Positions 3,301 through 42,983 of a stretch of DNA of 43,056 bases are shown here, piece after piece. A program made the translations under genes and the position numbers. Under the pieces are notes generated by a model. The model ran no database searches. It had not been told where the DNA came from and saw only the letters and a program-made list of their open reading frames with translations. Source of the stretch: Acidobacteriota bacterium (GTDB lineage: Bacteria; Acidobacteriota; UBA4820; DSQY01); NCBI GenBank assembly GCA_021813555.1, contig JAKAKG010000228.1, positions 1-43,056 of the forward strand, in the 5' to 3' direction. The number at the start of each line of letters is the position of its first letter. Position 1 is the first letter of the stretch.

Positions 3301-6300
3301 CCCAGCGGAGATGGCTCCGGGAACCGCGTGGTCAACCCCAGCGCTTGGTTTATAGATCCCGCCAATGGAAGTGCAGCCTATGCGCAAGAGGTAAGCGATT
3401 ACCTGCCGTTAAGCGACGTTCCCCCTGTCGCCGCCGACGTGAACGGGGACGGGAAAGCCGAGTTCATCGGGCTGACCAGCGCCAGGCTGAGTATCGCCTC
3501 GGAGGGTGACCTCTATTCTGGAGAGGAGAAACGCTTCGCGCCCACGGCGCGCCGCCTTAAGGAGCCCAAGGTAATAAGCCCGTCGCGGCCCAGGGCGGAG
3601 GGCGCCTTCCAAATCTCGCTCGACATTCCGACGAGCACCTGGGGCCAGGAGGGCGATATCTGGAACGGAACCTTCCTGCTCGGCGTGAGGGATGACGGAT
3701 TGGGAGCCGCCAATCCATTCTGTTTGGGGCTCATGCGGATGAATGAGAGCATACCGGCGGCGGTACTCCTGGTCCGGCTGGACGGTACGGTCATATGGAG
3801 GCATGATTTCCCCGCGCCCTTTGACTCCAATCCGGTAGACGGGCCCGTGTTCACCGATCTGAATGGAGACGGGACCCGCGACGTCCTGTTCGAAGCCGGG
3901 GACACGCTCTACGCCCTGAATGGGGCGACCGGCCAGATTCTCTGGACCTTCGCTTGCCCGCAATACTCCGGTCCGACTTTCCGCGTCGGGCATGCGGGCG
4001 GCGCGACGCGGATTTGGGTGGCCTATTCGCTTTCCTCAGGTGACGTACTCACACTCCTGGATGCTTCGGGCCAAACGGTGTACCAGACGGTCCCCGCCGG
4101 AGGGCTGGAGCCATCGACGTTGGTTACAGGCGACGTGGATGGGGATGGGAATGATGAAGCGGTGATCGCGCAGGATGAACAAGAAGGAACTCCACCTTTG
4201 GAAGTTTTTCGCGTTGCCAGTCCATCCCCGGTTTCAACTAACCTGCTGCCAACCTTGCCACCAAGCCTTTTCGACATCAACGACGACGGGAGGGACGAGG
4301 CCGTCTTTCTGATGATCGCGGGAGGGTACGATGAAGCGCAAATGCAAGCTCTGGTAGCGGCGGACGTCAATACTGGGCAGACAGTTTGGACCGCTATCCT
4401 TCCGACCATCCCCCAATGGACCAGGGTGTTGGCTTTCACGTTGGTTTCTTGTCATACCTCTGCCGGAGGAAAGCACTTGGTATTGGGCGAAAGCGTTGGC
4501 AGCCTGGGCCTGCGAGAAAGCATGCAGCAAGATCACATGACTTTCCTTATCGATTCGCCCAGCGGGGTAATCGAGCAAACTGTGGAAAACGGGGGGCCAG
4601 CAGAGCTTGCAGGCGATTTCGATGGCGATGGGCTGACAGAAGTGCTTTCCAGCTTTGGCTACTACAGCACCTGGCTTCTCGACAACGGCTGCGCGGCTCC
4701 TGACGGCACGTTGGGGCCCTGCGCCGAATGGGAAACCGTGTGGCAGACGGATGACTGGCTGACGGAGAACGGCGACTCCACTCTGGACATCCCGTATGCT
4801 CCAGGGATGATGGCCACGCCGGGTACCTATCGCGCGCTGGCATCGGCCATCACGACCGCCGGGCAGCGCCTTGAGGCGAAGCCTTCTCCCTTCTCCGTCG
4901 TTGACACCGCGCTGGGCTTGACCATCTCGCCCGCCGCCGGTACCACGATTCGCACGGATGAACCGTTGAGCGGTTCGATCTCGCTCGTCAACGCCGGTAC
5001 GGCGGTGGAGACTTCCATCACCGTGACCCTTCTGGTGGATGGCCAGCCGTCGTCCACCTGGAGTGTGAGTGCCCTGGAGCCTGGAGCGACGGAGAGTTTC
5101 ACCTTCACCCTGGCACCCGCGGCCGCTGGCAAACACACCGTGGAGGTGCAAGGGGTCGAAAACGGAGCGGCCGTCGCCAGCCTGCGGTCCAGCTACATCG
5201 CGGCTGCCGCGATGGTGGACGTGAGCGTCGAGGCTCCCGCCTCCCACTCGGAGGAACCCTTCGAGATCGCCATCGCCGTGGCCAACAGCGGCGACGTGCC
5301 GGCCCACGTCGTACTGACTCCTTCGGACGACCCATCCCAGCCAACGTCCGTGGATTTGCAACCGGAGGAGACACGGTCCATCACGATCCAGCGGCAAAGT
5401 ACGAGTGCCTATGCGGCGCAAGTGGCCATATCCGGCGACGTCTCACAGGTCCTCAGCGTAGCTGTCCCCTACGCCTATCAGCTTTCGATGAGCGTGGCCG
5501 ACCTGGGCCCGCAACTTAGTGGGCTCATTACCGTGCCGGTCCACCTCGCGCAAGCGGGGCCTCAGCCATACGCCGGTTCTCTGACGGCGACCATGACGCA
5601 GGCCGATGGAAGCACCCAATCCTTTGCCTGGCCGGTGCAGGTCCCCGCGGGCGGTGCCGCGGACGTAAGTTTGCAGATTGAAGCCGCCGTCGCTGGGCAA
5701 GCGCACCTGCACATCGAGGCGTCATTCGTGCAAGAGGCGGTGGACAAAGACGTCCTCGTCTATCGTGACGGGGTAGGAACGCTCCAAATCTTCCTCCCCG
5801 TAACTCTCGGTGAGGGGTTGGTCCAGATTCCCTTCACCGTCCAGAATGGCCTGGCGGCGCAGGGGAGCTTCAATGTCCAATTGAACTGGAGTGCGGGTGG
5901 CACAACGCAGACGGTGGCGGAGGCCAACCTGTCGGTAGCGGGCTCGGGAAGTGCGGCGGGAACGCTCACCCCCGCTCTCGCCCACGGGAACGGAACGCTT
6001 CAAGCCCTGCTGAATGGCGTGCCAGTAGCTTCGCAGTCCATCACCATCCTTCCCCTCGTTCAGGCGGACCTCACACTCAATGCTTTGCAGCCGTCCGATG
6101 CTGCGCCTTCTGTGACCGCGGTTATTGAAAACTCAGGATTCGGGCCGCTGGACGGAACGCTGGAAGTGCGAACGGATGCGGTTTACGCAATACCGGTCCA
6201 TGTTGATGCAGGGAGCCAGTTGACACAAACCGTCTCCATCAATCCAGACGGATTCGGCGGAGATGATGCTCCCGTGTCCGTGGTGTTGCACCTGCCCGGC

Positions 6301-9300
6301 GGAAGTACCGTGGAGCGAAACCTGGCCCTCGCGTTGAAGGCGGCGAGCCTCTTTGTGGCTCCGCCTCCAAGCCCCGTGATCCTCACACCGGGTCAGCCGT
6401 CAACCCTGGGCTTCACCGTAACGAACGCGGGCGACCTCAAGGCGCCGGTCACGCTGGCCGTCGACTTGGAGGACGGCGAATCGGGCCACTTCGAACAGGC
6501 CACCGACGTGCCCGGCCACGGCTCCACCCAGGTGGAGGCCGCCGTGAACCTTCTGCCGGACATCCCGAACGGCGTCTCGAACGCCCACTACATAATCCGG
6601 CGGGCCGGCGGGTCCGGCGAGCCGCTGGCCGAGGGATATCTTCCCGTCACCATTCAGGGGCCTGCCGTCGCGGTGTCCGCCTCGCTGGACGGCGTGGCCT
6701 ACCCCGTGGGAGCCACGGCCACGGCCAATGTCGCCCTCTCCCTCACCCCGCCGGACGCATCACCCAAGGATGTGCAAGTGCGAGTCATCGGCGGCACCTT
6801 CGAGGAGGAGCGCTCCGTCACGGTCTCCGGGACCCAGAGCGAAAGCTTTGCCGTTCCCGTCTCATCTGATACGGACGGGGTTTCTGTGGAGGTAATCCAG
6901 CCGGGAGGCCGGTCCCTTTATATCAACCGGCTCCGAATCTATCCTGTGGGGACCGGGTTCGCCATTCATCCCGACAAGAGTGTCTATCAGGCGGGAGAGA
7001 GCGTCAGCGTGTCGGCGAACCTGCCTTCGGCGGGCGCGCTCCACTTGAACTTCATGAACCAGGACGTGACGCTCCAAGGCAGCGGAACGGTGAACCAGTC
7101 CTTCTCCATCCCCGCCGACGCGGCGGAGGACAGCTACACTGTGGCCTACGATTACACGCCAACGGATACGACCGTATCCCCCGCCTCGGGCGGGATGTCC
7201 GTGGATGTCCACGGCATCGTCGTCACGGGCGGCGAATCGCGCCTCGACAAGAGCGCTTACGCTATCGGGGAGAACTTGACTGGCCGCGTCGTGCTCTATG
7301 CCAATCAAAACCTTACCGGCACGCTGAAGTTCTGGGTCGTGGCACCCGACGGCAGTTATGGCTACGCGGGCGATCAGGCCGTAGCCCTCGCTCCGGGCGG
7401 AGCGCCGGGGCGCTTTCCGTTTACCTTCCCCTTCACCACGACCCAGGCCGGTACGCACCGCGTAGCCTTCTCGCTGGTGGGAAGTTCCGGCACTTCCTAC
7501 GTGGGGGGCTCACTGCCTTTCCACGTTGGAAGCGGCATCCTTCTCGGCGTGGCGGCCACTCAGGCCAGCTATCCCCAGGGAACGGAGGCGGCATCGGTAA
7601 TACTCCGAACCGCCGGCACGGGAGCCGCGGCCGTCATAGTGGAATTGGACGAAAACGCGGCTGCACAGAATAGCTTCACGCTGAATGGAATTCAGGCCTT
7701 GACGCTGGGCCTTGGTTCCGTGTCACCAGGCGAGCACGCCGTGAAGGCGACTCTCACCGACGGCGCCGGGCTCGTTTCAGTGGCCCGATGCCGTTTCCTT
7801 TATGGTTCAAGCCTGCCGGATCTCACGGGTTCGGTGAGCGCGGGATGCCGGACCGGCGACACTCTGCCACTCTTCCTCATGGTTACGAACGGCGGTGCCA
7901 GCTCGGCGGGAGCCAGCACCATGGCGCTCTACGACGGCAACCCCCAGGCCGGAGGCGTCCTGATCGCCGCCGTGCCCGTGCCGGCCTTGGCCCCGGGCAG
8001 CCAGTTCACGTTTGGATACGACTGGGCCGTAGCGGGCGCGGAAGGGCTCCATGACCTCTATCTCGCCGCGGACAGCCAGTCCGCCGTTCCGGAATGGGAT
8101 GAAAGCAATAACACCGCTCACAGCTCCGTAACCGTGGCGGCCACAGTGGCTGTAGACGTCATGCCGTCCGACAACACGTGCTCGGCCCAGCCCATCGTGC
8201 CCTTGGCTCAAACCACGCCAGAAGGGACGCCTGTCACCGCCACGCTGAACGGAGCGACCTATTCGTGGGGCACGCCGATTGCGAGCGAGGGGGACTACCA
8301 GCTCGTAGCCACCGCGTCCACTGAATGTGGCGCCGGAGTGAGCGTCACGAGGCACTATGTGATCGATACGACTTTCCCCGCCATTCAGATTTCGGGCGTG
8401 GAGGACGGAGCCACCTACACGACGCCCGTTGCACCTGCCTTCCAGGCCACGGACGCCAACCTCGGCGCCACATCGGCACTCTTGAACGACCAGCCGTTCA
8501 TGAGTGGAACCGCGGTGAGCGCACCGGGCAGCTACGCCCTGAACGTATCGGCCACCGATTGCGCAGGGAACCGGAGCCAGGCGACAGCCCATTTCACGCT
8601 GGATGGCTCACCCGTGCCTATCCTCCCGCCGATCGTTGGCATGTACGCCGGCTTCGGGTGCAACTCGGTGGCCGTCAATGGCCACAACAAAGTCTTCGGC
8701 GTAGCGTCCGTGGGAAGTACACAGGGTTTCGGCGGACATCTCGCCTCCAACGGGGCCATCACCATCAGCGGGCAGAACGTCGTCAACGGAAACGCAACGC
8801 CCGGCCCAGGAAAACAGGTCAAAATCACGGGTTCGAAAAGCCAGGTTCTTGGATCCACGGCTCCCGCCGCGGGCTTGGTCCCCTGCGAGGAACAAAACGT
8901 GGCCGAGTGGGCTTCGTACGCGCAAGTCCACAATGACAACTCCTCCATCCCGTCACAATTCCTGGATGGGCAGGGGAACTTCAAGATCAACGGGAACAGA
9001 ACGTGCACGCTTCTTGGGGGCACGTACTACGTGGCCTCCTTTACCATGACGGGGAGCTCGAAACTGGTCCTTGGCGATTCCGCTACCATGGTGGTCACGG
9101 GAGCCATCACCATCAATGGCCCTTGCCTCGTGAACCAGAACGGTGATCCATCCCATCTCATTCTGGTGTCGAGCAGCGCCTCTCCTGTGTCGCTCAACGG
9201 GACCGCCAGCGTGGACGCGATCGTCTATGCACCCCTGGCACCTGTCACCGTCAATGGGAACATCACGGGGTATGGAAACCTCTGGGGGAAGACTCTCTTG

Positions 9301-9381
9301 GGGAACGGGTCGTGCCTGTGGGGCCGGCCGACACCCGAGGCAGCACCCGCTACGGACGACGTCGCGACGGAGTCCCGGTGA
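328..9381 (+). CDS. Giant secreted Ig-like / FG-GAP propeller protein, 5'-truncated
   Basis: A 3017-residue open frame. Residues 1-145 look like the back half of a ThuA/glutamine-amidotransferase-like domain (HPILSG, then LYEDWGYANGQ near 115, then ILANILSWA). Two long series of CARDB/Ig-like beta-sandwich repeats follow (about 145-1000 and 1480-2700). Between them, about 1030-1450, is an FG-GAP/PQQ-type propeller with five Asp-rich calcium motifs (DVNGDGKAE, DLNGDGTRD, DVDGDGNDE, DINDDGRDE, DFDGDGLTE). A clear CARDB domain lies at about 2496-2605. The last 245 residues form a polar, Asn/Gly-rich beta-helix-like domain. There is no signal peptide, no Shine-Dalgarno sequence before 328, and a TAG at 322-324. 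I therefore infer that the real N-terminus was lost to the adjacent IS or to a nonsense mutation. The role is probably surface adhesion or binding; the exact function is unknown. Confidence 0.8.
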   Translation: MGQALEGFVEQGGVVVSFTQPYGDDFSALPAPSGEELEAAGFKQDLSCFANSAYPTMEHPILSGITATTVTAGFDGFFRKIPANATVLLRRTISGEPCLILYPVGQGYVVASTLYEDWGYANGQSTADGRSILANILSWAKNPNPTIPVTNLSAGGSASGITLTLHVRNMSDTAADQMEVLVMTPDRQTLAVQLTQAVTIPAHSEADVPVTLDLSSYLGQSGAQYGIFHADYRLLAMNLATSQEEEIQPQGETETGRFVMEAVGTGRQALSQTVFSVRTDDDIAGNPAKTVHIHIEDHTGTARTMHMWTCYTHDYGILLDTITMPANGVLDKDVVQDLSRPGPYHYYLTDPNYGSNWGPEWAFMWGKDPWKMAAQGYAYMFGNGGPDGSQRFATVSAIAGTASYYEPTDTVTGTMTVANPRSVAEDLTVVFSLVAADRTVTQTETIHLEGGASQAVPFSLTLPGPIAYYTHSIVSAAVYLGQSLMGGTSADMYVNPWLPKTVLTALWPASPTLASLPTTPISVHIVNEAGTRVADCAGYQVRATVWEVIAQVPKTKLEEKVIPIPDLHPGDATDVTLQWAQWQPALGKTYLVQLWVELAASRSPIGGYISKSYALTPPWPSASLVRSLPGEATVALQGRVFNGGDLAWDGQMAWDCPALGVASSQAVTVPPQGEATSTWSGPRPDALPPGIYPYTATFTAPGLPAPLTTQGQLQVAAPALSLAWPETAPGFRHDQDGVLPVSVSVTGTAAPLAGTVDATMNWDGGSVPVASGVPVTLDPAQTGALTLTLPMAQMPAPGPFTVLVTLNVQQGALVQRWSAPYSLAGPAYAGGFSILTAAPGGTLAGEVQNIGAFEGNVQVQWNLADAKGTLVGEDNQTLPVSIGGTAPLSELLPANLLPGPYQSILLVTDTASGKTTSFRQAVNVTGTSPVLILSTDRSLYGTADTVGLALHVEDPGHALDSAYTHLEIQRYLGMGGQGGSRSGPPGASWNTPSGDGSGNRVVNPSAWFIDPANGSAAYAQEVSDYLPLSDVPPVAADVNGDGKAEFIGLTSARLSIASEGDLYSGEEKRFAPTARRLKEPKVISPSRPRAEGAFQISLDIPTSTWGQEGDIWNGTFLLGVRDDGLGAANPFCLGLMRMNESIPAAVLLVRLDGTVIWRHDFPAPFDSNPVDGPVFTDLNGDGTRDVLFEAGDTLYALNGATGQILWTFACPQYSGPTFRVGHAGGATRIWVAYSLSSGDVLTLLDASGQTVYQTVPAGGLEPSTLVTGDVDGDGNDEAVIAQDEQEGTPPLEVFRVASPSPVSTNLLPTLPPSLFDINDDGRDEAVFLMIAGGYDEAQMQALVAADVNTGQTVWTAILPTIPQWTRVLAFTLVSCHTSAGGKHLVLGESVGSLGLRESMQQDHMTFLIDSPSGVIEQTVENGGPAELAGDFDGDGLTEVLSSFGYYSTWLLDNGCAAPDGTLGPCAEWETVWQTDDWLTENGDSTLDIPYAPGMMATPGTYRALASAITTAGQRLEAKPSPFSVVDTALGLTISPAAGTTIRTDEPLSGSISLVNAGTAVETSITVTLLVDGQPSSTWSVSALEPGATESFTFTLAPAAAGKHTVEVQGVENGAAVASLRSSYIAAAAMVDVSVEAPASHSEEPFEIAIAVANSGDVPAHVVLTPSDDPSQPTSVDLQPEETRSITIQRQSTSAYAAQVAISGDVSQVLSVAVPYAYQLSMSVADLGPQLSGLITVPVHLAQAGPQPYAGSLTATMTQADGSTQSFAWPVQVPAGGAADVSLQIEAAVAGQAHLHIEASFVQEAVDKDVLVYRDGVGTLQIFLPVTLGEGLVQIPFTVQNGLAAQGSFNVQLNWSAGGTTQTVAEANLSVAGSGSAAGTLTPALAHGNGTLQALLNGVPVASQSITILPLVQADLTLNALQPSDAAPSVTAVIENSGFGPLDGTLEVRTDAVYAIPVHVDAGSQLTQTVSINPDGFGGDDAPVSVVLHLPGGSTVERNLALALKAASLFVAPPPSPVILTPGQPSTLGFTVTNAGDLKAPVTLAVDLEDGESGHFEQATDVPGHGSTQVEAAVNLLPDIPNGVSNAHYIIRRAGGSGEPLAEGYLPVTIQGPAVAVSASLDGVAYPVGATATANVALSLTPPDASPKDVQVRVIGGTFEEERSVTVSGTQSESFAVPVSSDTDGVSVEVIQPGGRSLYINRLRIYPVGTGFAIHPDKSVYQAGESVSVSANLPSAGALHLNFMNQDVTLQGSGTVNQSFSIPADAAEDSYTVAYDYTPTDTTVSPASGGMSVDVHGIVVTGGESRLDKSAYAIGENLTGRVVLYANQNLTGTLKFWVVAPDGSYGYAGDQAVALAPGGAPGRFPFTFPFTTTQAGTHRVAFSLVGSSGTSYVGGSLPFHVGSGILLGVAATQASYPQGTEAASVILRTAGTGAAAVIVELDENAAAQNSFTLNGIQALTLGLGSVSPGEHAVKATLTDGAGLVSVARCRFLYGSSLPDLTGSVSAGCRTGDTLPLFLMVTNGGASSAGASTMALYDGNPQAGGVLIAAVPVPALAPGSQFTFGYDWAVAGAEGLHDLYLAADSQSAVPEWDESNNTAHSSVTVAATVAVDVMPSDNTCSAQPIVPLAQTTPEGTPVTATLNGATYSWGTPIASEGDYQLVATASTECGAGVSVTRHYVIDTTFPAIQISGVEDGATYTTPVAPAFQATDANLGATSALLNDQPFMSGTAVSAPGSYALNVSATDCAGNRSQATAHFTLDGSPVPILPPIVGMYAGFGCNSVAVNGHNKVFGVASVGSTQGFGGHLASNGAITISGQNVVNGNATPGPGKQVKITGSKSQVLGSTAPAAGLVPCEEQNVAEWASYAQVHNDNSSIPSQFLDGQGNFKINGNRTCTLLGGTYYVASFTMTGSSKLVLGDSATMVVTGAITINGPCLVNQNGDPSHLILVSSSASPVSLNGTASVDAIVYAPLAPVTVNGNITGYGNLWGKTLLGNGSCLWGRPTPEAAPATDDVATESR

Positions 9382-32402: not shown

Positions 32403-32653
32403 CTGGCCTCCCCCAAGTCAGGGCACGCCCCCTTCCCCCGGCAGGCCCTGGCCCAAAGCGCCGTTCCGTGAGCCGCTAAGAGAATTCGTCAGCCCCTGAA
32501 TCAGGAACTCGGCCCAATCCCGCCGCCCGGCGGCCTGTCTCGGCCGCCTGTGCCATGGTTCCCCGGCCCTCCCCCGGGTAACGTCCCAAGACGATGACCT
32601 AACAGGCTGATAGTGAACAGGTTACCTCGTCCATCACGGGGCTGGGCGCGGCA

Positions 32654-32669
32654 TGGCACGGCGGTTGCG
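32654..32669 (+). promoter_or_regulatory. Sigma-54 promoter of the cupredoxin operon
   Basis: TGGCACGGCGGTTGCG matches the -24/-12 consensus TGGCACG-N4-TTGC at every defined base except the final weak A/T. Expected transcription start is about 32680, giving a leader of about 55 nt before the 64-aa gene. The activator gene ends 297 bp upstream. Confidence 0.88.
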
Positions 32670-32734
32670 CTGGAGGACCCGTCCCCAAGAGAGATCAAGG
32701 CTCGCGGCGGGGAAGCTTGCGAACGGGAGTGCCC

Positions 32735-32929
32735 ATGGATCACCGAGAGCACATTCAGAGAGCGTTGGCGCTCAGCGGCGGCCTCCTGACCCTGGCGGAC
32801 CAGGAGAAGTTGGACGGCGAGGACGATGGGTGCCTCGTGCTGGACGGCATCCTGAGGGACTGCGCCTACAAAATTCGCGGGGCGGCGGAGCGGCTGCACA
32901 ACCAAACAACGAAGGTGGAGAAGGAATGA
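32735..32929 (+). CDS. Unrecognised 64-aa protein, first gene of the sigma-54 operon
   Basis: I cannot assign a function. The 64-residue product (MDHREHIQRALALSGGLLTL at the start, then an acidic EDDGC, then LDGILRDCAYKIRGAAER) looks like an all-helical cytoplasmic protein with two cysteines (33 and 43) and no signal peptide. The ATG at 32735 follows GGGAG with 5-nt spacing. Its stop overlaps an in-frame upstream ATG (32926) of the next gene in an ATGA arrangement, which points to translational coupling. As the first gene behind the sigma-54 promoter, it may be an accessory or regulatory protein for the secreted products that follow. Confidence 0.7.
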   Translation: MDHREHIQRALALSGGLLTLADQEKLDGEDDGCLVLDGILRDCAYKIRGAAERLHNQTTKVEKE

Positions 32930-33000
32930 AGGCCGCCGGCCTGAATCGAAGCGGCGGCCTTGGGCAGGCTGGGTTTTGCGTGAAGGAAGGAGCGTTTTCC

Positions 33001-36000
33001 ATGCGGCACGACAAGGCAGGCCGAGATCCCGTCGGCCAAGGGCTTCGGTGGTGCGTCTTGGGCGCCATGTTGGTCGCGGCCCTTTGTGTTCCGGCCGCCG
33101 CGGCGGCGCAGACGACGACCTTGACCATCAACGTGGCGGACGTGGATGCGTCCCCGCCGCCCATAGGCGGGTTCTACTACACGGTGGAGGAGGACAACAC
33201 CCAGCTCGTCGTACCCGGTGTCCTCTTCGACCCTCTCAGCCCCGAGGTCAACATCACCCGGAGCCATTCCAACCTGCTCGCCTCGGGCGTTTCCGCCGGG
33301 AGTTCCGTGCAGGTCACCATCGACAGCACGAAGCGCTACTACGTTTCGGCCCTTCCCTGGCAAGGAGGACCTCCCGTAGGCAACGGTCCGGCTCCCGATG
33401 CCGTGTCATCGTTCACCCTCGGTGGAGCCCCCGTCGCCGCGGGCCAGACTTCGGTGACGGTGAAGGTGCACTCCACGCCCATTCCCACGGCCCAGATCTT
33501 CGTCCTTGCCTTCGAGGACAACTCCCCCATCAACGGCGCCCCGGATCAGCCCAGCGAAGCGGGCTTGCCGGGCTTTACGGTGCAGCTCACGGACACCCTC
33601 GGACGGGTGAGCCAGGATGCCTTCGGCAACCCCCTGGGCACCACCTACCAGCAGAACCCTAACGGGTCCTTCGTGCTGGGCGCCAACGGCCTGCCCATCG
33701 TGAACACCCTCGGCACGGGGGCCGTTACCACCGACGCCAGCGGCCAGGCCCTCATCAAGTTCCTCTTTCCGGGCAAGTACGGCGTGCGCATCACGCCGCC
33801 CACCAGCGGGCCCGATTCGGACATGATCCAGACGGCCACCATCGAAGGGACGCCCAGCCAGGACAACTGGGTCATGGCCGGGGAGCCGCCTTACTTCAAC
33901 GAGGGCGGCCTCACATCCTGGCACACGTTCATCGGATTCGTGCATCCCATGCAGGCCCCGGGCGGCTCAGGCACCATCACGGGCAGGTATGACGCCGTCC
34001 ACGAATCGCCCCCGCCCGCCCAGAACGCCATCACCGTGGGCCCTGCCATTCCCCAAGGCTGGGTGGGCCTCTCGGATTTGGGCAAGACCAACGAGGAGCA
34101 GATCTACGCCGAGCCCACGAACCCCGACGGCACCTTCACCATCTCGGGGGTGCCTCCGGGCAATTACCTGCTCAGCGTGTGGGACAGCCCCAACCTGGAC
34201 TACATCATCGACTACCGCAACGTGACCATCCCGCCCACGGGCGGGACCGTGGCCCTGGGTGACGTAGCCGTCTTCGCCTGGTTCGGCCACATGGAGGGCC
34301 ACGTGTTCGTGGACGCCAACGGCAACGGCCAGATGGACCCGGGCGAGGCGGGCATCTCCCAGGTCCCCGTGAAGCTGCGTTTCACGGACGGCAGCCTCAC
34401 GCCAGGAGGGCTCACGGTCACCGACTCGACGGGCTTCTACGCCTTTGATGAAGTCTTCCCCTGGTTCCACTGGGTCGTGGCCGAGGTGGACAATACCCGG
34501 TTCAAACCCACGGGCGCCACCATGGTGGTAGACGCGGGCGGCGGCCCCCTTCCCGATCCCAACAAGCTGCAGAACCCGCAGCTTCAGCCCAGCAACGGCA
34601 ATCTCCCCTCCCGGACGGAGACGACGCCGGCCCCGGGTGCCACCTCGTCCGGTGTCCTCACCGAGGCCATGCTCGACTACGCCGACCAGACGAACACCAT
34701 CGACTGGGGCAAGGCATACTACGCGCCGGGACAGAACGGGGGCATCTACGGCATCGTCTCCTATGACACGACGCGGGCCGAGGACAACCCCCAGTACGGC
34801 ACCCAGGAGTTCTGGCAGCCGGGCATCCCGCGCGTGATCATCAACCTGTACGCGTCCGATTCGAGCGGCAACATCACCAACGCCACGCCCATCCAGACCA
34901 CCCAGACCACGAGCTGGGACGATCACCTGCCCACGGGATGCGTGGGCCCGCCCCAGACCCTGCCCAACGGCACGCCCATCATGAACTGCGCCGACGACCT
35001 CCGGACCTGGAACCAGCTCCGTCCCGGCGTCTACGACGGCATGTACGCTTTCACGGGGCTAGCCCCGGGCTACTACGTGGTGCAGGTGGTTCCGCCCCCG
35101 GGTTACGAGGTGGTCCACATTGAAGACCGGAACATCTTCTTCGGGGCTGCCCCCACGCCATACGTGGTCCCGCCTCTCTGCGTGGGCGACACGTACACGG
35201 TGCCCCAATACGAGCAGCTCTTCCCGGGCCAGCAGATCCCCGTTCCGGCCCCCTATGCCGGATCCCAGGCCCAGGTCTGTGACCGCAAACTGGCCGTAGT
35301 GCGCGACGGCCAGAACTTCAACGCGAACTTTTTCCTCTTCACGGGCGCACCCGTCGCCGGGCGGATCTGGGGCGTCGTCCTCAACGACACGACCCTGGAA
35401 TTCAATCCCGCCAGCCCTCAGTACGGCAACAACTTGGGCGCCTCTTTCCTCCCCATCTCCATCAAGGATTACGCGGGGGTGGAGGTGAACCGGTTCTACT
35501 CGGACCAGTGGGGACGGTACAACGGCCTCGCGCCCTCCACCTACACCATCAACCCGCCCGACCCTTCTGGGGTGGCTCCCAACATCGTGCAGGTCGTCAT
35601 GAATGACCCAGGCCCCATCCCCGATCCCAACCACCCCGGCTCTTTCATCACCGATCCATTCTACAATCCCTCCTACCAGACCATCTCCACGGAGCTGGAC
35701 ATCTGGCCCGGCACGACCCTTACGGCCGACACCCCCATCCTCCCCGTGGCGGCCTTCACGGCCAGCACCTCACCCTTGGATTGCGAGGCGCCCGATAAGA
35801 CGCCCTACATCAAGCAGGTGGACGGGAGCGGCTCAGGCCCGTATCTCGTGACCACCCCCGGGGTCCTCACCCTCACCGCCGTGGGCCCCATGACCGTGGC
35901 GAACCCGGACTACGATCCCACGGTTCCAGGCAGCCCCACGACCATCGTGCGAGATTACGGCTTCGGCGCCACCCAGGGAACGGTGACCCTGAACGGGGTC

Positions 36001-38658
36001 AAGATCCCCGACGCCAACGTGAACTGGTCCAACCTGGCCCTCTCCGTCACCATCCCCGCGGGGAGCGTCACGGGCGAGCTCCTCGTCACGCGCGGCGACA
36101 GCGGCAACACCAGCCCCATGGGCATTACCCTACACATCGGCGACACCAACGTGGTGCACGTGGGCCAGGGCCAGTCCATCCAGACCGCCGTGGACAACGC
36201 CACGCCGGGCGAGCTGATCATGGTGGGCCCAGGCACCTTCAATGAAAACGTCATCGTCTGGAAAAAGGTCCAGATCCAGGGCACGGGCGCTTTCTCAACC
36301 CAGCTCCAGGTTCCCCCGCTCCAGGGGGACCAGACCACGGCGTGGCAGGCCAAGATGACGGCCCTGGAAACGAGCGGCGCCATCACCCTCGTGCCCGGAG
36401 AGCGCGCCGATTTCTACCTGGAGACGGGGGGCGGCTTCACCCTGGTGGGCAAGAACGACGGGAGCTGGGACAACAACCCGCCCGCCATGGTGGACGGCTT
36501 CGACATCGAGGGCGCCATCCAGGGCGGCGGCGTCTTCGTGAACGCTTACAACACCTTCACCCACGTGAGCAACAACCGGATCCGGGCCAATCAGGGAAGC
36601 CTGGGCGGCGGTATCCGCGTGGGAACGCCCACCATCGTGTGCGCCACGCCCGGCACGTGCGCGGGCCAGTTTGAAAGCTCCCACAACGAGGACATGGTCA
36701 TCGCCTACAATCAGATCAACCAGAACGGCGCCATCGACGGCGGCGGCGGCGTGGCCATCTTCACGGGGGCCGACCGCTATCAGTTCGTGGGCAACGACGT
36801 CTGCGGGAACTTCACCCTTCAGTACGGCGGAGGCATGGTCCATCAGGGGGTGAGCAACGGCGCCAGGGTCTCCCGGAACGTGTTCCTCAACAACCAGTCC
36901 TTTGACGAAGGCGGAGGGTTCATGATCGTGGGTGAGACGGTCCCCGCCGCCAACGTGGCCTCGGGCTACCTCTCCGACGGCTGCGGCAGCGTGAACATCG
37001 ACAAGAACCTCTTCGAAGGAAACCAGGGCGGGGACGACGGAGGCGCTGTGCGCCTCATGGCCGTGAACGGCGAGGACGTGCGCCAGCACCCGGCCGATCC
37101 CACCCAGTGGTATCAAACCCTTATCACCAACAACGTCATGACCAACAACGTGAGCGGCGACCTGGGCGGCGCCATCGCCATGCTCGACGCGGTGAACACG
37201 GACATCATCAACAACACCATCGTCCACAACGACAGCACGAGCACCAGCCAGGATTCCTTCGGCGGGCCCTGCATCCCCGCCGCCCCTCCCGGCCAGGCGT
37301 GCCCGGAGCCGAGCGTGGGCGGCGGAGGCCTGACGAACAGCATCCCACAGGTGGGAGGCATCGCGGCCCAGCTCACGAGCAGCGGCCTTCAGACGGCCAT
37401 GGCGACGTCCCCCGTCCCGGCCACCAACAAGGAATATTCAAACCCGGTCCTCCACGACAACATCATCTGGCAGAACCGGTCATTCTGGTGGGACGCCAAC
37501 GCCAACGGCGGCTTCGGAGGATTGCAGCCCCGCTCGGCCATCGCGGGATTCTCGGATTACTGGGACCTGGCCGTCTACACCCCAGACACCAATTACATGG
37601 ACCCCCAGTACTCCATCCTCACCACCATGGACCGGGGCGACGGCACCCAGTTCTCGCCCACGAACGTGGCGGCGGATCCGGCCCTCGTCAATACCCTCTT
37701 CAACACCTATCTAGCCACCTCCAAGGGCGCCGCGCTCGGCAACACCGTCACGGTGGTCTGGAAGCCTCTGGGACGGCGAGGAGACGCGCACCTGACCTCC
37801 GCCTCCCCCGCCCGCGGCCTCGGCGGCGGCGTCTTCGTGGCCTCCCTGCCTCAGCTTCAATTGGACTACGACCTGGCTCCGAGGCCCACGGGCACGGTCT
37901 TCGATTCGGGCGCGTCACAGTTCGTGTCCGCCGCCGCGGGAACGGCGGATCTGGGCATCACCGACGTGGGCTCTCCGCAGGGAGTAGTCTCGGGCGTCGC
38001 CACCGCCCTCACCTACACCGTGACCGTGACCAACATCGGGCCATCCGCGGCCAGCGGCGTCACCATCAACGACACGTTGCCCTCGGGCGCTTCGGGTGTC
38101 TCCGCCGCCGTTTCCCAGGGCTCGATCACCGTCTCCTCAAACAGCGTTGTGGCCGCCAGCGTGGGGGCTATGAACTCAGGAGCCACGGTGGCCCTTACGA
38201 TCCAGCTCACCCTGACGACCACGGTGCAGGCATCCAACTCGGCCTCCGTCGCCAGCGGCACCGTGGACCCGAACCTCGCCAATAATTCAGCCACCGCCAC
38301 CACCAGCGTCTTCGCGGCGCTGTCGCCCGTCCTGAACGTCAGAATCCTCTCCAACAGCCTGCCGGGACCCAACGCCGGCACCAACCTCACCTTTACGTGG
38401 GACCCGCCGGCCAGCGCGGCCAGCGGCTGCGGCACGGTGGTGTACGACGTGCTGCAGAGTTCAAACCCCGCGGATTTTGTAACCGCGGCCACGTGCGTCG
38501 CCACGGGAGTGACGGTGACCACGGCACCGGACGATGACCTCGTGCCCATGAATCCGGGCGAAGTCCGGTACTACCTCGTCCGCGACAGGGACGCCTGCGG
38601 CTCGAACCTCGGTACGGCCTCGGACGGCACGCCGCGCCAAGGGAGGACCTGCCCATGA
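33001..38658 (+). CDS. Secreted SdrD-like / beta-helix giant protein
   Basis: 1885 residues. Signal peptide 1-36 (CVLGAMLVAALCVPAAAAAQ ends at the predicted cut). Carboxypeptidase-regulatory/SdrD B-like beta domains follow, with a clear calcium-type motif FVDANGNGQMDPGEAG near 435. A TIG/IPT-like domain lies at about 954-1050. A long right-handed beta-helix runs from about 1054 to 1490, beginning GQSIQTAVDNATPGELIMVG and full of GGG and NN turns. A DUF11 repeat lies at about 1650-1774 (LTYTVTVTNIGPSAASGVTI). A C-terminal Fn3-like domain ends in a YYLVRDRDACG motif. No sortase or outer-membrane anchor is seen. The start at 33001 follows GGAAGGAG with 8-nt spacing; ATG 32926 is an alternative with a worse signal peptide. 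I infer a surface or extracellular scaffold for the cupredoxin proteins encoded next. Confidence 0.9.
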   Translation: MRHDKAGRDPVGQGLRWCVLGAMLVAALCVPAAAAAQTTTLTINVADVDASPPPIGGFYYTVEEDNTQLVVPGVLFDPLSPEVNITRSHSNLLASGVSAGSSVQVTIDSTKRYYVSALPWQGGPPVGNGPAPDAVSSFTLGGAPVAAGQTSVTVKVHSTPIPTAQIFVLAFEDNSPINGAPDQPSEAGLPGFTVQLTDTLGRVSQDAFGNPLGTTYQQNPNGSFVLGANGLPIVNTLGTGAVTTDASGQALIKFLFPGKYGVRITPPTSGPDSDMIQTATIEGTPSQDNWVMAGEPPYFNEGGLTSWHTFIGFVHPMQAPGGSGTITGRYDAVHESPPPAQNAITVGPAIPQGWVGLSDLGKTNEEQIYAEPTNPDGTFTISGVPPGNYLLSVWDSPNLDYIIDYRNVTIPPTGGTVALGDVAVFAWFGHMEGHVFVDANGNGQMDPGEAGISQVPVKLRFTDGSLTPGGLTVTDSTGFYAFDEVFPWFHWVVAEVDNTRFKPTGATMVVDAGGGPLPDPNKLQNPQLQPSNGNLPSRTETTPAPGATSSGVLTEAMLDYADQTNTIDWGKAYYAPGQNGGIYGIVSYDTTRAEDNPQYGTQEFWQPGIPRVIINLYASDSSGNITNATPIQTTQTTSWDDHLPTGCVGPPQTLPNGTPIMNCADDLRTWNQLRPGVYDGMYAFTGLAPGYYVVQVVPPPGYEVVHIEDRNIFFGAAPTPYVVPPLCVGDTYTVPQYEQLFPGQQIPVPAPYAGSQAQVCDRKLAVVRDGQNFNANFFLFTGAPVAGRIWGVVLNDTTLEFNPASPQYGNNLGASFLPISIKDYAGVEVNRFYSDQWGRYNGLAPSTYTINPPDPSGVAPNIVQVVMNDPGPIPDPNHPGSFITDPFYNPSYQTISTELDIWPGTTLTADTPILPVAAFTASTSPLDCEAPDKTPYIKQVDGSGSGPYLVTTPGVLTLTAVGPMTVANPDYDPTVPGSPTTIVRDYGFGATQGTVTLNGVKIPDANVNWSNLALSVTIPAGSVTGELLVTRGDSGNTSPMGITLHIGDTNVVHVGQGQSIQTAVDNATPGELIMVGPGTFNENVIVWKKVQIQGTGAFSTQLQVPPLQGDQTTAWQAKMTALETSGAITLVPGERADFYLETGGGFTLVGKNDGSWDNNPPAMVDGFDIEGAIQGGGVFVNAYNTFTHVSNNRIRANQGSLGGGIRVGTPTIVCATPGTCAGQFESSHNEDMVIAYNQINQNGAIDGGGGVAIFTGADRYQFVGNDVCGNFTLQYGGGMVHQGVSNGARVSRNVFLNNQSFDEGGGFMIVGETVPAANVASGYLSDGCGSVNIDKNLFEGNQGGDDGGAVRLMAVNGEDVRQHPADPTQWYQTLITNNVMTNNVSGDLGGAIAMLDAVNTDIINNTIVHNDSTSTSQDSFGGPCIPAAPPGQACPEPSVGGGGLTNSIPQVGGIAAQLTSSGLQTAMATSPVPATNKEYSNPVLHDNIIWQNRSFWWDANANGGFGGLQPRSAIAGFSDYWDLAVYTPDTNYMDPQYSILTTMDRGDGTQFSPTNVAADPALVNTLFNTYLATSKGAALGNTVTVVWKPLGRRGDAHLTSASPARGLGGGVFVASLPQLQLDYDLAPRPTGTVFDSGASQFVSAAAGTADLGITDVGSPQGVVSGVATALTYTVTVTNIGPSAASGVTINDTLPSGASGVSAAVSQGSITVSSNSVVAASVGAMNSGATVALTIQLTLTTTVQASNSASVASGTVDPNLANNSATATTSVFAALSPVLNVRILSNSLPGPNAGTNLTFTWDPPASAASGCGTVVYDVLQSSNPADFVTAATCVATGVTVTTAPDDDLVPMNPGEVRYYLVRDRDACGSNLGTASDGTPRQGRTCP

Positions 38659-38725: not shown

Positions 38726-39979
38726 ATGAACGGCATGAGAGAACTGGGATGGGCAGCCCTGCTGGCAGCCTCGCTTATGGCCGCGCCCGCGGCCCGGGCG
38801 GACAACCTGCCGGGGTCCAGGCCCCCGGACCCTTACAGGTCCAGGACCGAGGGCATTGACATCCAGTGCCCGGGCGCCACGGACCCCAAGGCCGTCTGCG
38901 TGTCCATCGCCTGCGGAGACGGCTTCGTCAAGATGGCCGACGGCAGCGACCAGTACATCTTCGGCTTCCAGGACGTGGCGGGCATCGACCCCACGGTGAT
39001 GTGGAGTTACGGGCGCCTGGGGGCGGAATTCCCCGCACCCACCATCTGGGCCAAGGAGGGCCAGCACCTCTACCTCACCCTCACGAACCTGGGCATGATC
39101 ATGCGGCCCGACCTCTTCGACCCGCATACCATCCACTTCCACGGCTTCCCGAACGCCGCCTCCATCTTCGACGGCGAGCCCATGGCCTCCTTCGGGGTGA
39201 CCCAGAACAACAGCGTCACGTATTTCTACGACCTCCAGGAGCCGGGCACCTTCATGTACCACTGCCACCAGGAAGCCTCCGAGCACATGCAGATGGGCAT
39301 GCTCGGCCAGCTCTACATCCTCGCCGCCCAGGACGACCTGCCAGACGGGACCCTCCTGGGCACGTTCACCCACCACACGGGCTACAAATACGTGTATGAC
39401 GACGGAGACGGTTCCACCAAGTACGACGTGGAGGTTCCCCTCCAGATGTCCTCCTTCGACCCGCACTTTCACGCAGCGGACCTGGGCATTCAGCCGCCCC
39501 CCTTCGCCACCATGGTGGATGTCTATCCCATGCTCAACGGGCGCGGCTATCCGGACACGGTGAACCCGGGCGGCATCATGAACAACCGGAACGCGTACCG
39601 GTCTGACATCCCCAACAAGGTGGCCCAGAAGATTCCTGCCCTCATCACGTGCACCCAGGGGCAGAAGGTCCTGCTGCGGATTTCGAGCCTCTCCACCACC
39701 GAGTTCAACACCCTGACGGCGCCTGGCTTCCCCATGCTCGTCGTAGGAACGGGAGCCCACCTCCTGAGGGGGCCCGACAAGCCGGACGGCACCCCGGGCA
39801 AGAACCTGTACTACCTCACCCAAACCATCACCCTGGGGGGAGGCGAATCCACGGACGTGATCGTGGACACCACGAACGTCCCGCGCGGCACCTACTTCCT
39901 GTACACGTCGAACCTGAACGAACTGAGCAACGACAACGAGGACTACGGCGGGATGATGACCGAGTTCGTGGTCAATTGA
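38726..39979 (+). CDS. Secreted multicopper-oxidase protein A: type 1 copper plus half the trinuclear site
   Basis: 417 residues with a signal peptide ending ARA-D (about residue 25). Cupredoxin domain about 90-200 carries HTIHFHG (His134, 137, 139) and YHCHQEASEHMQMGM (His179, Cys180, His181, His187, Met192). By homology with canonical oxidases, His134, Cys180, His187 and Met192 form the blue type 1 site. His137, 139, 179 and 181 supply half of the type 2/3 cluster. A second cupredoxin-like domain fills about 235-417 without a second set of ligands. The order is unusual: C-terminal-type motifs sit near the N-terminus. The start at 38726 follows GGAAGGAG. It lies 67 bp after the giant gene in the same operon. 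Substrate unknown. Confidence 0.88.
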   Translation: MNGMRELGWAALLAASLMAAPAARADNLPGSRPPDPYRSRTEGIDIQCPGATDPKAVCVSIACGDGFVKMADGSDQYIFGFQDVAGIDPTVMWSYGRLGAEFPAPTIWAKEGQHLYLTLTNLGMIMRPDLFDPHTIHFHGFPNAASIFDGEPMASFGVTQNNSVTYFYDLQEPGTFMYHCHQEASEHMQMGMLGQLYILAAQDDLPDGTLLGTFTHHTGYKYVYDDGDGSTKYDVEVPLQMSSFDPHFHAADLGIQPPPFATMVDVYPMLNGRGYPDTVNPGGIMNNRNAYRSDIPNKVAQKIPALITCTQGQKVLLRISSLSTTEFNTLTAPGFPMLVVGTGAHLLRGPDKPDGTPGKNLYYLTQTITLGGGESTDVIVDTTNVPRGTYFLYTSNLNELSNDNEDYGGMMTEFVVN

Positions 39980-40029
39980 GGGCCCGGCCGGTGCGGGTCC
40001 GCGGACGCGGGTCACGCGGGAGGAACATC

Positions 40030-41628
40030 ATGAACCGAGAACGCAAACGCATGTGGACCAAGGAGGCAGCCACCCTGGCGGTGCTCCTCCTGGGGATCGC
40101 CGTGGGGAGTCACGCCACGATCCTGGGGCTTACGGGCACGAGCCCCAACCCCACCTTCAATTTCATCGCCAAGCAGGGGTACATCTCCACTCCCGACGGT
40201 AATTCGATTTACTGCTGGGGCTACGCGAACGGCGCCACGGGGGCGTTTCAGTTGCCGGGGCCGACGCTCATCGTGAACGAGGGCGACACGGTCACCATCA
40301 CCTTGCAAAACCAGATCTCCATCCCCGGCCCGCCCGCCGTGCCGGGACCAGCCGTGTCCATGATCTTCCCGGGCCAGCAGAACGTATCGGCCTCGGGCGG
40401 GACGGCGGGCGTCCTCACACAGGAAGCTCCCTCGGACGGAACCACCACGGTCACCTACACCTTCGTCGCCGCCCATCCGGGGACCTACACGTACTTCAGC
40501 GGCACTCGCATGGAGCTGGAGGTGGAGATGGGGCTCTACGGGGCCCTCATCGTGAGGCCCGCGGGGTTCGACCCCAACGTGGCCGCCAACCGGCGAGCCT
40601 ACGACGACCCCGCCTCTCAGTACGACCACGAGTACCTCTACCTCCTGAGCGACCTGGACCCCACCCTCCACCCCTTGGTGGAGCAGAACAAGCTGGACCA
40701 GTACGACAACACGACCTTCTTCGCCAACAACTGGCTCGTCACCGGCCGCTGTTTTCCCGACACCATGGCGGACCCTAACGTGGGCTACCTCCCCAGCCAG
40801 CCCTATAACACGGCGCCCCTCACCCACCCGGGGGAGAAGGTGCTCCTGAGGTTCATCGGAGCGGGGCACGACCTCCATCCCCTCCACCATCACGGCAACA
40901 ACGCCCTCATGATCGCCAAGGACGGACGGCTTCTGGAGAGCGCGCCCGGCGTGAGCGGGCCCGATCTGGCGGTGTCGGACTTCACCGAAACCGTGGCGCC
41001 CGGAGAGACCATCGACGCCATCTGGGTCTGGTACGGGTACCACCTGGGATGGGACGAGTACGGCCATACGCTGGGCGGTCCAGGCCCCTTCCAGCCCAAC
41101 GAGATTTACGCCCAGTCCACCCTGGCTTCATCCATCGGTGTGGCGGACACGACGATCAGCGTTCCCGCGGGCACGGGCCATGCGTTCCTGCCCCCGCCCA
41201 GGACCTTCCGGGCCATCATCTGGGGCGCGGGGTATGCCAACCCCGATCTCGATCCCAACCGGGAGGTGGTGACCGCGACCCGGAGTTTGACCAACCCCGA
41301 CACGTTCACCATCACCCGCGCCCAGGAGGGCACCGCCGCCCAGGCGTGGTCCGTAGGCTCCATCATCGCCGACACGGACCACGGCCTGCCGCTGCCCGTG
41401 ACCATGCCCAGCATCCAGAACCTGGAGTTCGGCCAGTACGCCAGCGGCAGCCCGTTCCTCGGCCAGTCGGGCGCGCTGCCGCCCTTGCAGGGCGGTTTCA
41501 ATCCTTACAACGGCTATTACTACATGTTCCACTCTCACAACGAAAAAGAAATCGTGAACAACAACGTGTTTCCCGGCGGCATGCTGACCATGATGGGGGT
41601 CTTGCCGTACGGTGCTCCCATCCCGTGA
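40030..41628 (+). CDS. Secreted multicopper-oxidase protein B: other half of the trinuclear site
   Basis: 532 residues with a signal peptide (about 1-29). First cupredoxin domain about 30-175, with HPGTYTYFSG and MELEVEMGLYGAL but no complete copper set. Second domain from about 180 carries HPLHHHGNN (His283, 286, 287, 288) and, near the end, MFHSHNEKEI (His501, His503). These match the N-terminal-type HxHG and HSH motifs of multicopper oxidases. There is no type 1 cysteine. Between the two motifs an approximately 100-residue insert (355-455) resembles a phage-tail-like beta module (ASSIGVADTTISVPAGTG ... RAQEGTAAQAWSVG). The motifs resemble the MofA/MnxG class in memory; not tested. ATG 40030 follows GGGAGGAA. 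Confidence 0.87.
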   Translation: MNRERKRMWTKEAATLAVLLLGIAVGSHATILGLTGTSPNPTFNFIAKQGYISTPDGNSIYCWGYANGATGAFQLPGPTLIVNEGDTVTITLQNQISIPGPPAVPGPAVSMIFPGQQNVSASGGTAGVLTQEAPSDGTTTVTYTFVAAHPGTYTYFSGTRMELEVEMGLYGALIVRPAGFDPNVAANRRAYDDPASQYDHEYLYLLSDLDPTLHPLVEQNKLDQYDNTTFFANNWLVTGRCFPDTMADPNVGYLPSQPYNTAPLTHPGEKVLLRFIGAGHDLHPLHHHGNNALMIAKDGRLLESAPGVSGPDLAVSDFTETVAPGETIDAIWVWYGYHLGWDEYGHTLGGPGPFQPNEIYAQSTLASSIGVADTTISVPAGTGHAFLPPPRTFRAIIWGAGYANPDLDPNREVVTATRSLTNPDTFTITRAQEGTAAQAWSVGSIIADTDHGLPLPVTMPSIQNLEFGQYASGSPFLGQSGALPPLQGGFNPYNGYYYMFHSHNEKEIVNNNVFPGGMLTMMGVLPYGAPIP

Positions 41629-41645
41629 CGCGGGGAGGAATGGAC

Positions 41646-42983
41646 ATGACGATGCAAGGAATGACCCGATGGCTCAAGCCCGCCGCCCTGGGGGTCCTGC
41701 TGTGGGCCTCCCTGGCCGGCCCCGCCCGCGCCGCCGACTTCTACCTCAAAGCCGCGGCCATGACCAAGACCATGCCCAACGCCGGGCCCGCCATCACCAT
41801 GTGGGGCTACGTCTTGTGCGACGCGACCTTCACGCCCCTCGCCGGACAGGTGGTCCAGGTTCCCGGGCCGCGCCTGGTGGTACCACCGGGGGATACGACC
41901 CTGAACATCCACCTTTTGGACGGGCTGCCCAGCGCGGGGTCCGAGACCAGCAACACGTCCCTGGTCATCCCCGAGCTTCCAGCCACTATGGTTCCCACGT
42001 GGACCGACGGCACCACGGGACCCAGGACGAGCACCACGCAGCGGGTTCGCTCCTTCACCCAGGAAGTGGCCCCAGGCGGGTCGGTCACCTACACGTGGAC
42101 CTCCCTGCGGCCGGGAACCTTTCTCTACGAGAGCGGCACGCACCCCTCGGTGCAGGTGCAGATGGGCCTCTACGGCTGCGTCACCATTGACGCCGCCGCT
42201 GGCCCCCCGGCCCAGGCCTATCCCGGCGTTTCCTACGACAACGAGGCGGTCCTCGTCTTCAGCGAGGTGGACCCGGCGATCCACGCCGCCGTCGCGGCGG
42301 GCACCTACGGCACGGCGCCCTACACGTCCACCATCAACTACACGCCCAAGTACTTCTTCATCAACGGCGCCCCCTATCCCGATACCCTCGCCGCTCCCAT
42401 TTTCACCAAGCCCTTCGTGCTCGGCCAGAGAATCCTCCTGCGGTTCCTCAACCCCGGAGAAGAAACCCACGTCCCCGTCCTCCAAGATCTGTACATGACC
42501 GTGGTGGCCCAGGACGGGTATCCCCTGCCCTTTCCCAGGACGGAATACTCCCTCATTCTCGAGGCGGGCAAGACCTTCGACGCCATCGTCACCCCCACCA
42601 CCAGCGGCCTCCACGGGCTCTTCGACCGGAGGCTCCGGCTGACCAACAACATGGCGTCCAACGGCGGCATGCTCACATATCTGACAGACAACGGCGCCGC
42701 GGGCGGATGCCCAGGAACCGTGGGCTCGACCTTGAAGCTCTCCAAGAGCGGAGGCCAGATTCTGTTCACATGGGGCAACATCGCCCTCGCGTCCTCTTAC
42801 ATCGTCTACCAATCCAATGTCGCGTCGCTCGCTCCCTTTACCCAGCAGGACACGCTGAACCCTACCGCTCCCGCGGACGGGACGACGGGAGCCACCATGC
42901 CCATGCCGCCGGACAACCTGGTCTTCTTCCTCATCGCCGGGGACAACCTGGCGGGAGGCGGATGCGTGGGACCTCAGAGGTAG
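41646..42983 (+). CDS. Secreted cupredoxin-fold protein C lacking copper ligands
   Basis: 445 residues with a signal peptide (about 1-30, ending ARAAD). It is paralogous to protein B: RPGTFLYESGTHPSVQVQMG aligns with HPGTYTYFSG...EMGLYG, and LLRFLNPGEETHVPVLQDLY aligns with B's LLRFIGAGHDLHPLHHHG. The HxHG histidines have become HVPVLQ, and the HSH motif is replaced by LFDRRLRLTN, so no copper site remains. A C-terminal Fn3-like domain (LKLSKSGGQILFTWGNIA to the end) resembles the tail of the giant protein. It starts 17 bp after gene B at ATG 41646, with GGGGAGG 7 nt upstream; ATG 41640 is too close to that site. Probably a structural subunit. Confidence 0.85.
   Translation: MTMQGMTRWLKPAALGVLLWASLAGPARAADFYLKAAAMTKTMPNAGPAITMWGYVLCDATFTPLAGQVVQVPGPRLVVPPGDTTLNIHLLDGLPSAGSETSNTSLVIPELPATMVPTWTDGTTGPRTSTTQRVRSFTQEVAPGGSVTYTWTSLRPGTFLYESGTHPSVQVQMGLYGCVTIDAAAGPPAQAYPGVSYDNEAVLVFSEVDPAIHAAVAAGTYGTAPYTSTINYTPKYFFINGAPYPDTLAAPIFTKPFVLGQRILLRFLNPGEETHVPVLQDLYMTVVAQDGYPLPFPRTEYSLILEAGKTFDAIVTPTTSGLHGLFDRRLRLTNNMASNGGMLTYLTDNGAAGGCPGTVGSTLKLSKSGGQILFTWGNIALASSYIVYQSNVASLAPFTQQDTLNPTAPADGTTGATMPMPPDNLVFFLIAGDNLAGGGCVGPQR

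Follow-up and report, generated by a model that had tools for sequence, protein, structure and literature searches.

A putative multicopper oxidase with its copper ligands divided between two adjacent, paralogous cupredoxin proteins

Two adjacent genes of an Acidobacteriota bacterium encode proteins, here called A and B, that each carry half of the ligands of a trinuclear copper cluster. We consider it probable, at roughly three chances in four, that A and B, together with the product of a third gene, C, form a secreted heteromeric multicopper oxidase having a single active site and most likely built as a 1:1:1 ring. The window analyzed (the whole stretch of 43,056 nucleotides of contig JAKAKG010000228.1) ends in four co-directional genes on the forward strand. 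The first is an open reading frame for a very large secreted protein with matches to SdrD B-like and DUF11 domains (32653-38658), the true start of which is probably downstream of 32653. It is followed by the open reading frames of A (417 residues, 38726-39979), B (532 residues, 40030-41628) and C (447 residues, 41640-42983). The coordinates that the sequence-only reading had given for A plus B (38726-41628) were correct on checking the open reading frames. A, B and C each have two cupredoxin domains and a Sec-like hydrophobic N-terminus, and each matches Pfam multicopper oxidase domains, the match of C being weak. A further giant open reading frame of 3017 residues (328-9381) falls outside these findings.

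Multicopper oxidases require a type 1 copper site (two His residues, a Cys and usually a Met) plus eight His residues arranged in four HxH motifs. A and B hold this set jointly and neither chain holds it singly. In A, domain 1 contains the type 1 site and four cluster His residues and domain 2 is ligand-free. Motif I (HTIHFHG, 39125-39145, forward strand) provides the type 1 ligand H134 and the cluster ligands H137 and H139, and motif II (HCHQEASEHMQMGM, 39260-39301, forward strand) provides the cluster ligands H179 and H181 plus the type 1 ligands C180, H187 and M192. In B, domain 1 is ligand-free and domain 2 carries the other four cluster His residues and no type 1 site. Motif III (HPLHHHG, 40876-40896, forward strand) contains H283, H286 and H288, of which the latter two are cluster ligands and H283 occupies a type 1 position and is not a cluster ligand; motif IV (HSHNEKEI, 41530-41553, forward strand) contains the cluster ligands H501 and H503. 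No HCH sequence is present anywhere in the 532 residues of B. C, in which both sites are lost, supplies neither type 1 nor cluster ligands. The ligands that the sequence-only reading assigned to A (type 1 plus four cluster His) and to B (the complementary four and no type 1 Cys) are thus exactly those found, and they are conserved. Its statement that neither chain is complete and that together they make one full set also stands, as eight cluster His residues, four per chain, are found at all 46 loci described below.

Profile comparisons indicated that the three proteins are end-to-end paralogues (A-B, 7e-35; B-C, 1.3e-55). In profile alignments the columns of the domain 1 site of A are occupied by VSMIFPG and FSGTRMELEVEMGL in B and by TSLVIPE and ESGTHPSVQVQMGL in C, with the HCH...EHMQMGM segment of A aligned to FSG...ELEVEMGL of B. 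At the domain 2 site of B (HPLHHHG), the aligned stretches of A and C are free of ligands. Note that profile-profile alignment was used for the motif IV region of A and C, where the joint alignment had misplaced that motif. As A domain 2 and B domain 1 are ligand-free at matching positions, the sites decayed reciprocally. Outside the copper motifs, A residue H249 is invariant in 33 of 33 A proteins and lies within a DPxxH motif common to A, B and C. B also contains an insertion (window 41107-41373, residues about 360-448) of low model confidence that is shared only with L019 in the alignment, and which we presume to resemble a repeat domain often seen in phage tail proteins.

The A-B-C cluster was found in 46 loci of several phyla by a search that covered Acidobacteriota, the class of a Sulfuricella MAG, the phylum of a Deltaproteobacteria MAG and plasmids. 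The sources include Sulfuricella, Sideroxydans (MAG, L016), Cupriavidus metallidurans CH34, Paraburkholderia, an Anaerolineales MAG and MAGs of Gammaproteobacteria and Deltaproteobacteria. We aligned 33-34 homologous pairs (38-61% identity) column by column; two plasmid-record rows were left out of the sets used for structure prediction. The A residues H134, H137, H139, H179, C180, H181, H187 and M192 were unchanged in 33/33 sequences, B residues H286, H288, H501 and H503 were His in 34/34, and H283 was His in 33/34. Motif I of A and motifs III and IV of B were present in 46/46 loci, and motif II conformed to the strict pattern in 45/46, the exception (L091) having HCHFEAPEHIQL with the axial Met aligned. 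Since the ligands are invariant or nearly so both across homologous pairs and across the 46 loci, the split arrangement is, as judged from the sequences, not due to chance.

The order A-B-C on one strand was found at every locus, with one formal exception, L077, where a long spurious frame precedes B and accounts for the departure. Where a genome has two or three clusters, every one of them includes A and B, and in a sample of 198 genomes every strong B match adjoins an A match. At none of the 46 loci does A or B carry both halves of the trinuclear site, and no A-B fusion was seen among them. The long open frames in G375, G488 and G603 were inspected; those of G375 and G603 were judged spurious because they read like translation out of frame, and B and C are separate genes in all three. 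Stray HxH sequences occur in A domain 2 (2/46 loci), in C (3/46) and in B ahead of motif III (14/46, mostly HMH just upstream of that motif in a subfamily with a long C), all of them outside the ligand columns as judged by eye. A and B distances are correlated (r = 0.897, 0/500 label shuffles), which partly reflects shared descent. The sequence-only reading had named a homologue of A or B that is a complete oxidase alone as one of the observations that would overturn it. No complete orthologue was found in the 46 loci, and complete single-chain proteins appear only as distant relatives.

AlphaFold models of A (pLDDT 83, pTM 0.83, with a low-confidence loop at residues 141-154 beside motif I) and B (pLDDT 81, pTM 0.79) both gave as best PDB match 2zwn, a metagenomic two-domain laccase, with 3g5w (the Nitrosomonas blue copper oxidase) and 3gdc high among the matches. 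These type C two-domain oxidases are the best matches in both sequence and fold. The cluster of a two-domain oxidase is shared by neighboring monomers, one contributing its domain 1 and the other its domain 2, and in type C the type 1 copper is in domain 1 (PMC13151041). A domain 1 and B domain 2 appear to be exactly the two cluster halves of such an enzyme. Of the three, only A combines two cupredoxin domains with a domain 1 type 1 site as type C enzymes do; B and C are homologues that lack type 1 ligands. Single-chain relatives having all four motifs are found in Chloroflexota (L018, at 27% identity, and L127). In the tree the type C single-chain relatives form one clade with A, B and C (support 0.996), within which B and C group together (0.99) and the single-chain proteins are weakly placed beside A (0.61). 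This refines the sequence-only reading: the parent would be a type C oxidase of two domains and not a three-domain laccase that was cut. The simplest history is that a complete two-domain enzyme was triplicated and that all but one active site was then lost. Two further two-domain oxidases (L133:1176-2585 and L134:3687-5009) have HCH motifs in both domains, a type A-like pattern, and a paralogue without HxH copper motifs lies 1.8 kb downstream of that in L133.

A second split family was found in genomes of another phylum as nine adjacent B'-A' gene pairs (L132, L138, L139 and L155-L160), five of which are in one genome (G1158). The type 1 site and the domain 1 half are found in A', the domain 2 half in B'. 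All eight B' proteins with the start present carry a twin-arginine motif, RR[DEN]F[IL]K, and no signal-like hydrophobic N-terminus was seen in the A' proteins. As A' without a signal of its own needs export and its partner has a Tat signal, these sequences suggest, and are best explained by, export of A' as a passenger folded with B' in a preformed complex. The B'-A' family is independent support for the principle of a split site, although not for the complex of the window itself. One A' copy (L156) is interrupted by a stop, and the L132 and L138 pairs are near a gene for a peroxidase-like cytochrome. In the tree B' groups with B and C (0.97) and A' is unplaced, a grouping that could be biased by shared motif loss. 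No B'-A' pair was found in 217 genomes of the window's own phylum, in a search that had no positive control there.

The genes around the A-B-C cluster make an extracellular metal or mineral oxidase role plausible. Downstream of the proteobacterial clusters are a small lipoprotein-like gene, a subtilisin-type protease, SCO1/SenC and a cytochrome c/binding-protein fusion, and the protease carries Ig repeats of the same families as the C tail. In about half of the loci a large SdrD-type open reading frame precedes A. Such an upstream frame was not seen in the long-C subfamily, and both C tails tested from that subfamily contained an SdrD-like domain, near the family cut-off. The occurrence of SdrD-type sequence upstream of A and in C tails ties an adhesin to the oxidase. 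The SdrD/DUF11 protein of the window is a probable surface anchor.

We would predict the following for the complex, its stoichiometry, its copper loading and its substrate. A, B and C would be secreted separately and then assemble outside the inner membrane, most likely as a 1:1:1 ring of six cupredoxin domains. The type 1 copper of A domain 1 would take electrons from the substrate, probably a metal or mineral-bound iron, and pass them by the His-Cys-His bridge to a trinuclear cluster, to which A domain 1 and B domain 2 would each give four His residues and at which O2 would be reduced. C and the ligand-free domains would only close the ring, leaving one of three ancestral active sites, and the SdrD-type adhesin would anchor the complex to the cell surface. 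The obligate heteromer with a shared trinuclear site put forward by the sequence-only reading gains support from the reciprocal decay, the constant A-B-C order, the matches to 2zwn and the Tat signal on one partner of the second family; it is changed in that C probably takes the third place in the ring and the parent would have had two domains. The fullest version of this model is an obligate A:B:C heterotrimer derived from a triplicated homotrimeric two-domain ancestor, in which two of three sites were erased without fusion, acting as a surface-anchored mineral or metal oxidase and having B'-A' as a second form. We hold that version at slightly better than even odds.

C is part of one unit with A and B and is a probable structural third subunit. 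Alternatively, A and B may share the cluster, as a heterodimer or in some larger A/B assembly, with C a separate surface scaffold outside the ring, a possibility we take seriously while doubting it. The second family has only B' and A' side by side, no third paralogue being seen beside any of the nine pairs, and a C-containing trimer is therefore not general. The adhesin tail borne by C of the long-C subfamily is well over 1,000 residues long, and A-C distances are less well correlated (0.74) than A-B distances (0.90). Against this, C is paralogous to A and B, has two domains as they do and is found in order in 46/46 loci, and the known two-domain oxidases are rings of three (PMC13151041).

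That A and B act independently, A as a type 1 copper electron carrier or a metal oxidase without oxygen chemistry and B as a copper-binding partner or chaperone, seems unlikely. Each chain of the A-B-C family does have its own secretion signal. However, exactly one full set of eight cluster His residues is distributed four per chain at homologous positions in all loci, and without a cluster there would be no reason for the invariance of A residues H137, H139, H179 and H181. It is very improbable that A is a copper nitrite reductase-like protein with mononuclear copper. Nitrite reductases are among the sequence and fold matches of A, but the best matches are two-domain oxidases, and the positions that we take to be those of nitrite reductase Asp98 and Ala137 are cluster His residues in A (within HTIHFHG and HCH), an invariant oxidase pattern on which we rejected this assignment. 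Finally, although the three genes are adjacent and homologous, a single oxidase broken or mis-annotated through frameshift, pseudogene formation or assembly error is refuted by the three-gene layout that recurs in 46 loci of independent assemblies, by the start, signal and stop of each chain, and by A and B being full-length paralogues rather than consecutive pieces.

Our search of the open-access literature for heteromeric or split multicopper oxidases returned nothing on a shared cluster; the multicopper oxidases of the surveyed literature have a complete ligand set per chain and are monomers or homotrimers. As far as we found in that literature, a split arrangement with a shared cluster is undescribed for multicopper oxidases. 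If the proposed heteromer is correct, then, being widespread and strictly conserved, it would show how symmetric enzymes lose redundant active sites, it would provide a testable stage on the proposed route from two-domain to six-domain oxidases and a living parallel to the proposed origin of the ceruloplasmin-type enzymes, and calling A or B an oxidase on its own would be a misleading annotation. Functional studies of these clusters in iron-oxidizing bacteria would then need A, B and C expressed together.

Related clusters have already been noted in iron oxidizers. Sideroxydans lithotrophicus ES-1 has three tandem cupredoxin genes with SCO1 and a cytochrome (Slit_1812-1818), and the cluster was more abundant on magnetite; in the parts of that report available to us, two of the three cupredoxin proteins are described as having typical oxidase motifs and one as lacking them, and no shared active site is proposed (PMC12016527). 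An earlier survey had listed the three tandem genes (PMC5566968). We infer from its layout, and from the Sideroxydans MAG with an A-B-C cluster (L016), that the ES-1 cluster may be an A-B-C cluster. Two different subunits are also found in the POXA3-type heterodimeric fungal laccases, but there the large subunit holds all of the copper and the small subunit is unrelated. The type C enzymes resemble A and B in having two cupredoxin domains per chain, domain 1 with two HxH motifs and the type 1 copper, domain 2 with another two HxH motifs. However, their halves are on one chain that forms a homotrimer, whereas here the halves are on separate gene products and C has neither. The six-domain oxidases (ceruloplasmin, hephaestin and MnxG) are thought to go back to a two-domain protein that was triplicated and lost sites within one chain (PMC3600357). 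Like the proposed A:B:C complex they have six cupredoxin domains and one surviving trinuclear site, but they are single chains with type 1 copper in the even-numbered domains, whereas A, B and C are three chains encoded by separate open reading frames and the type 1 copper would be in the N-terminal domain.
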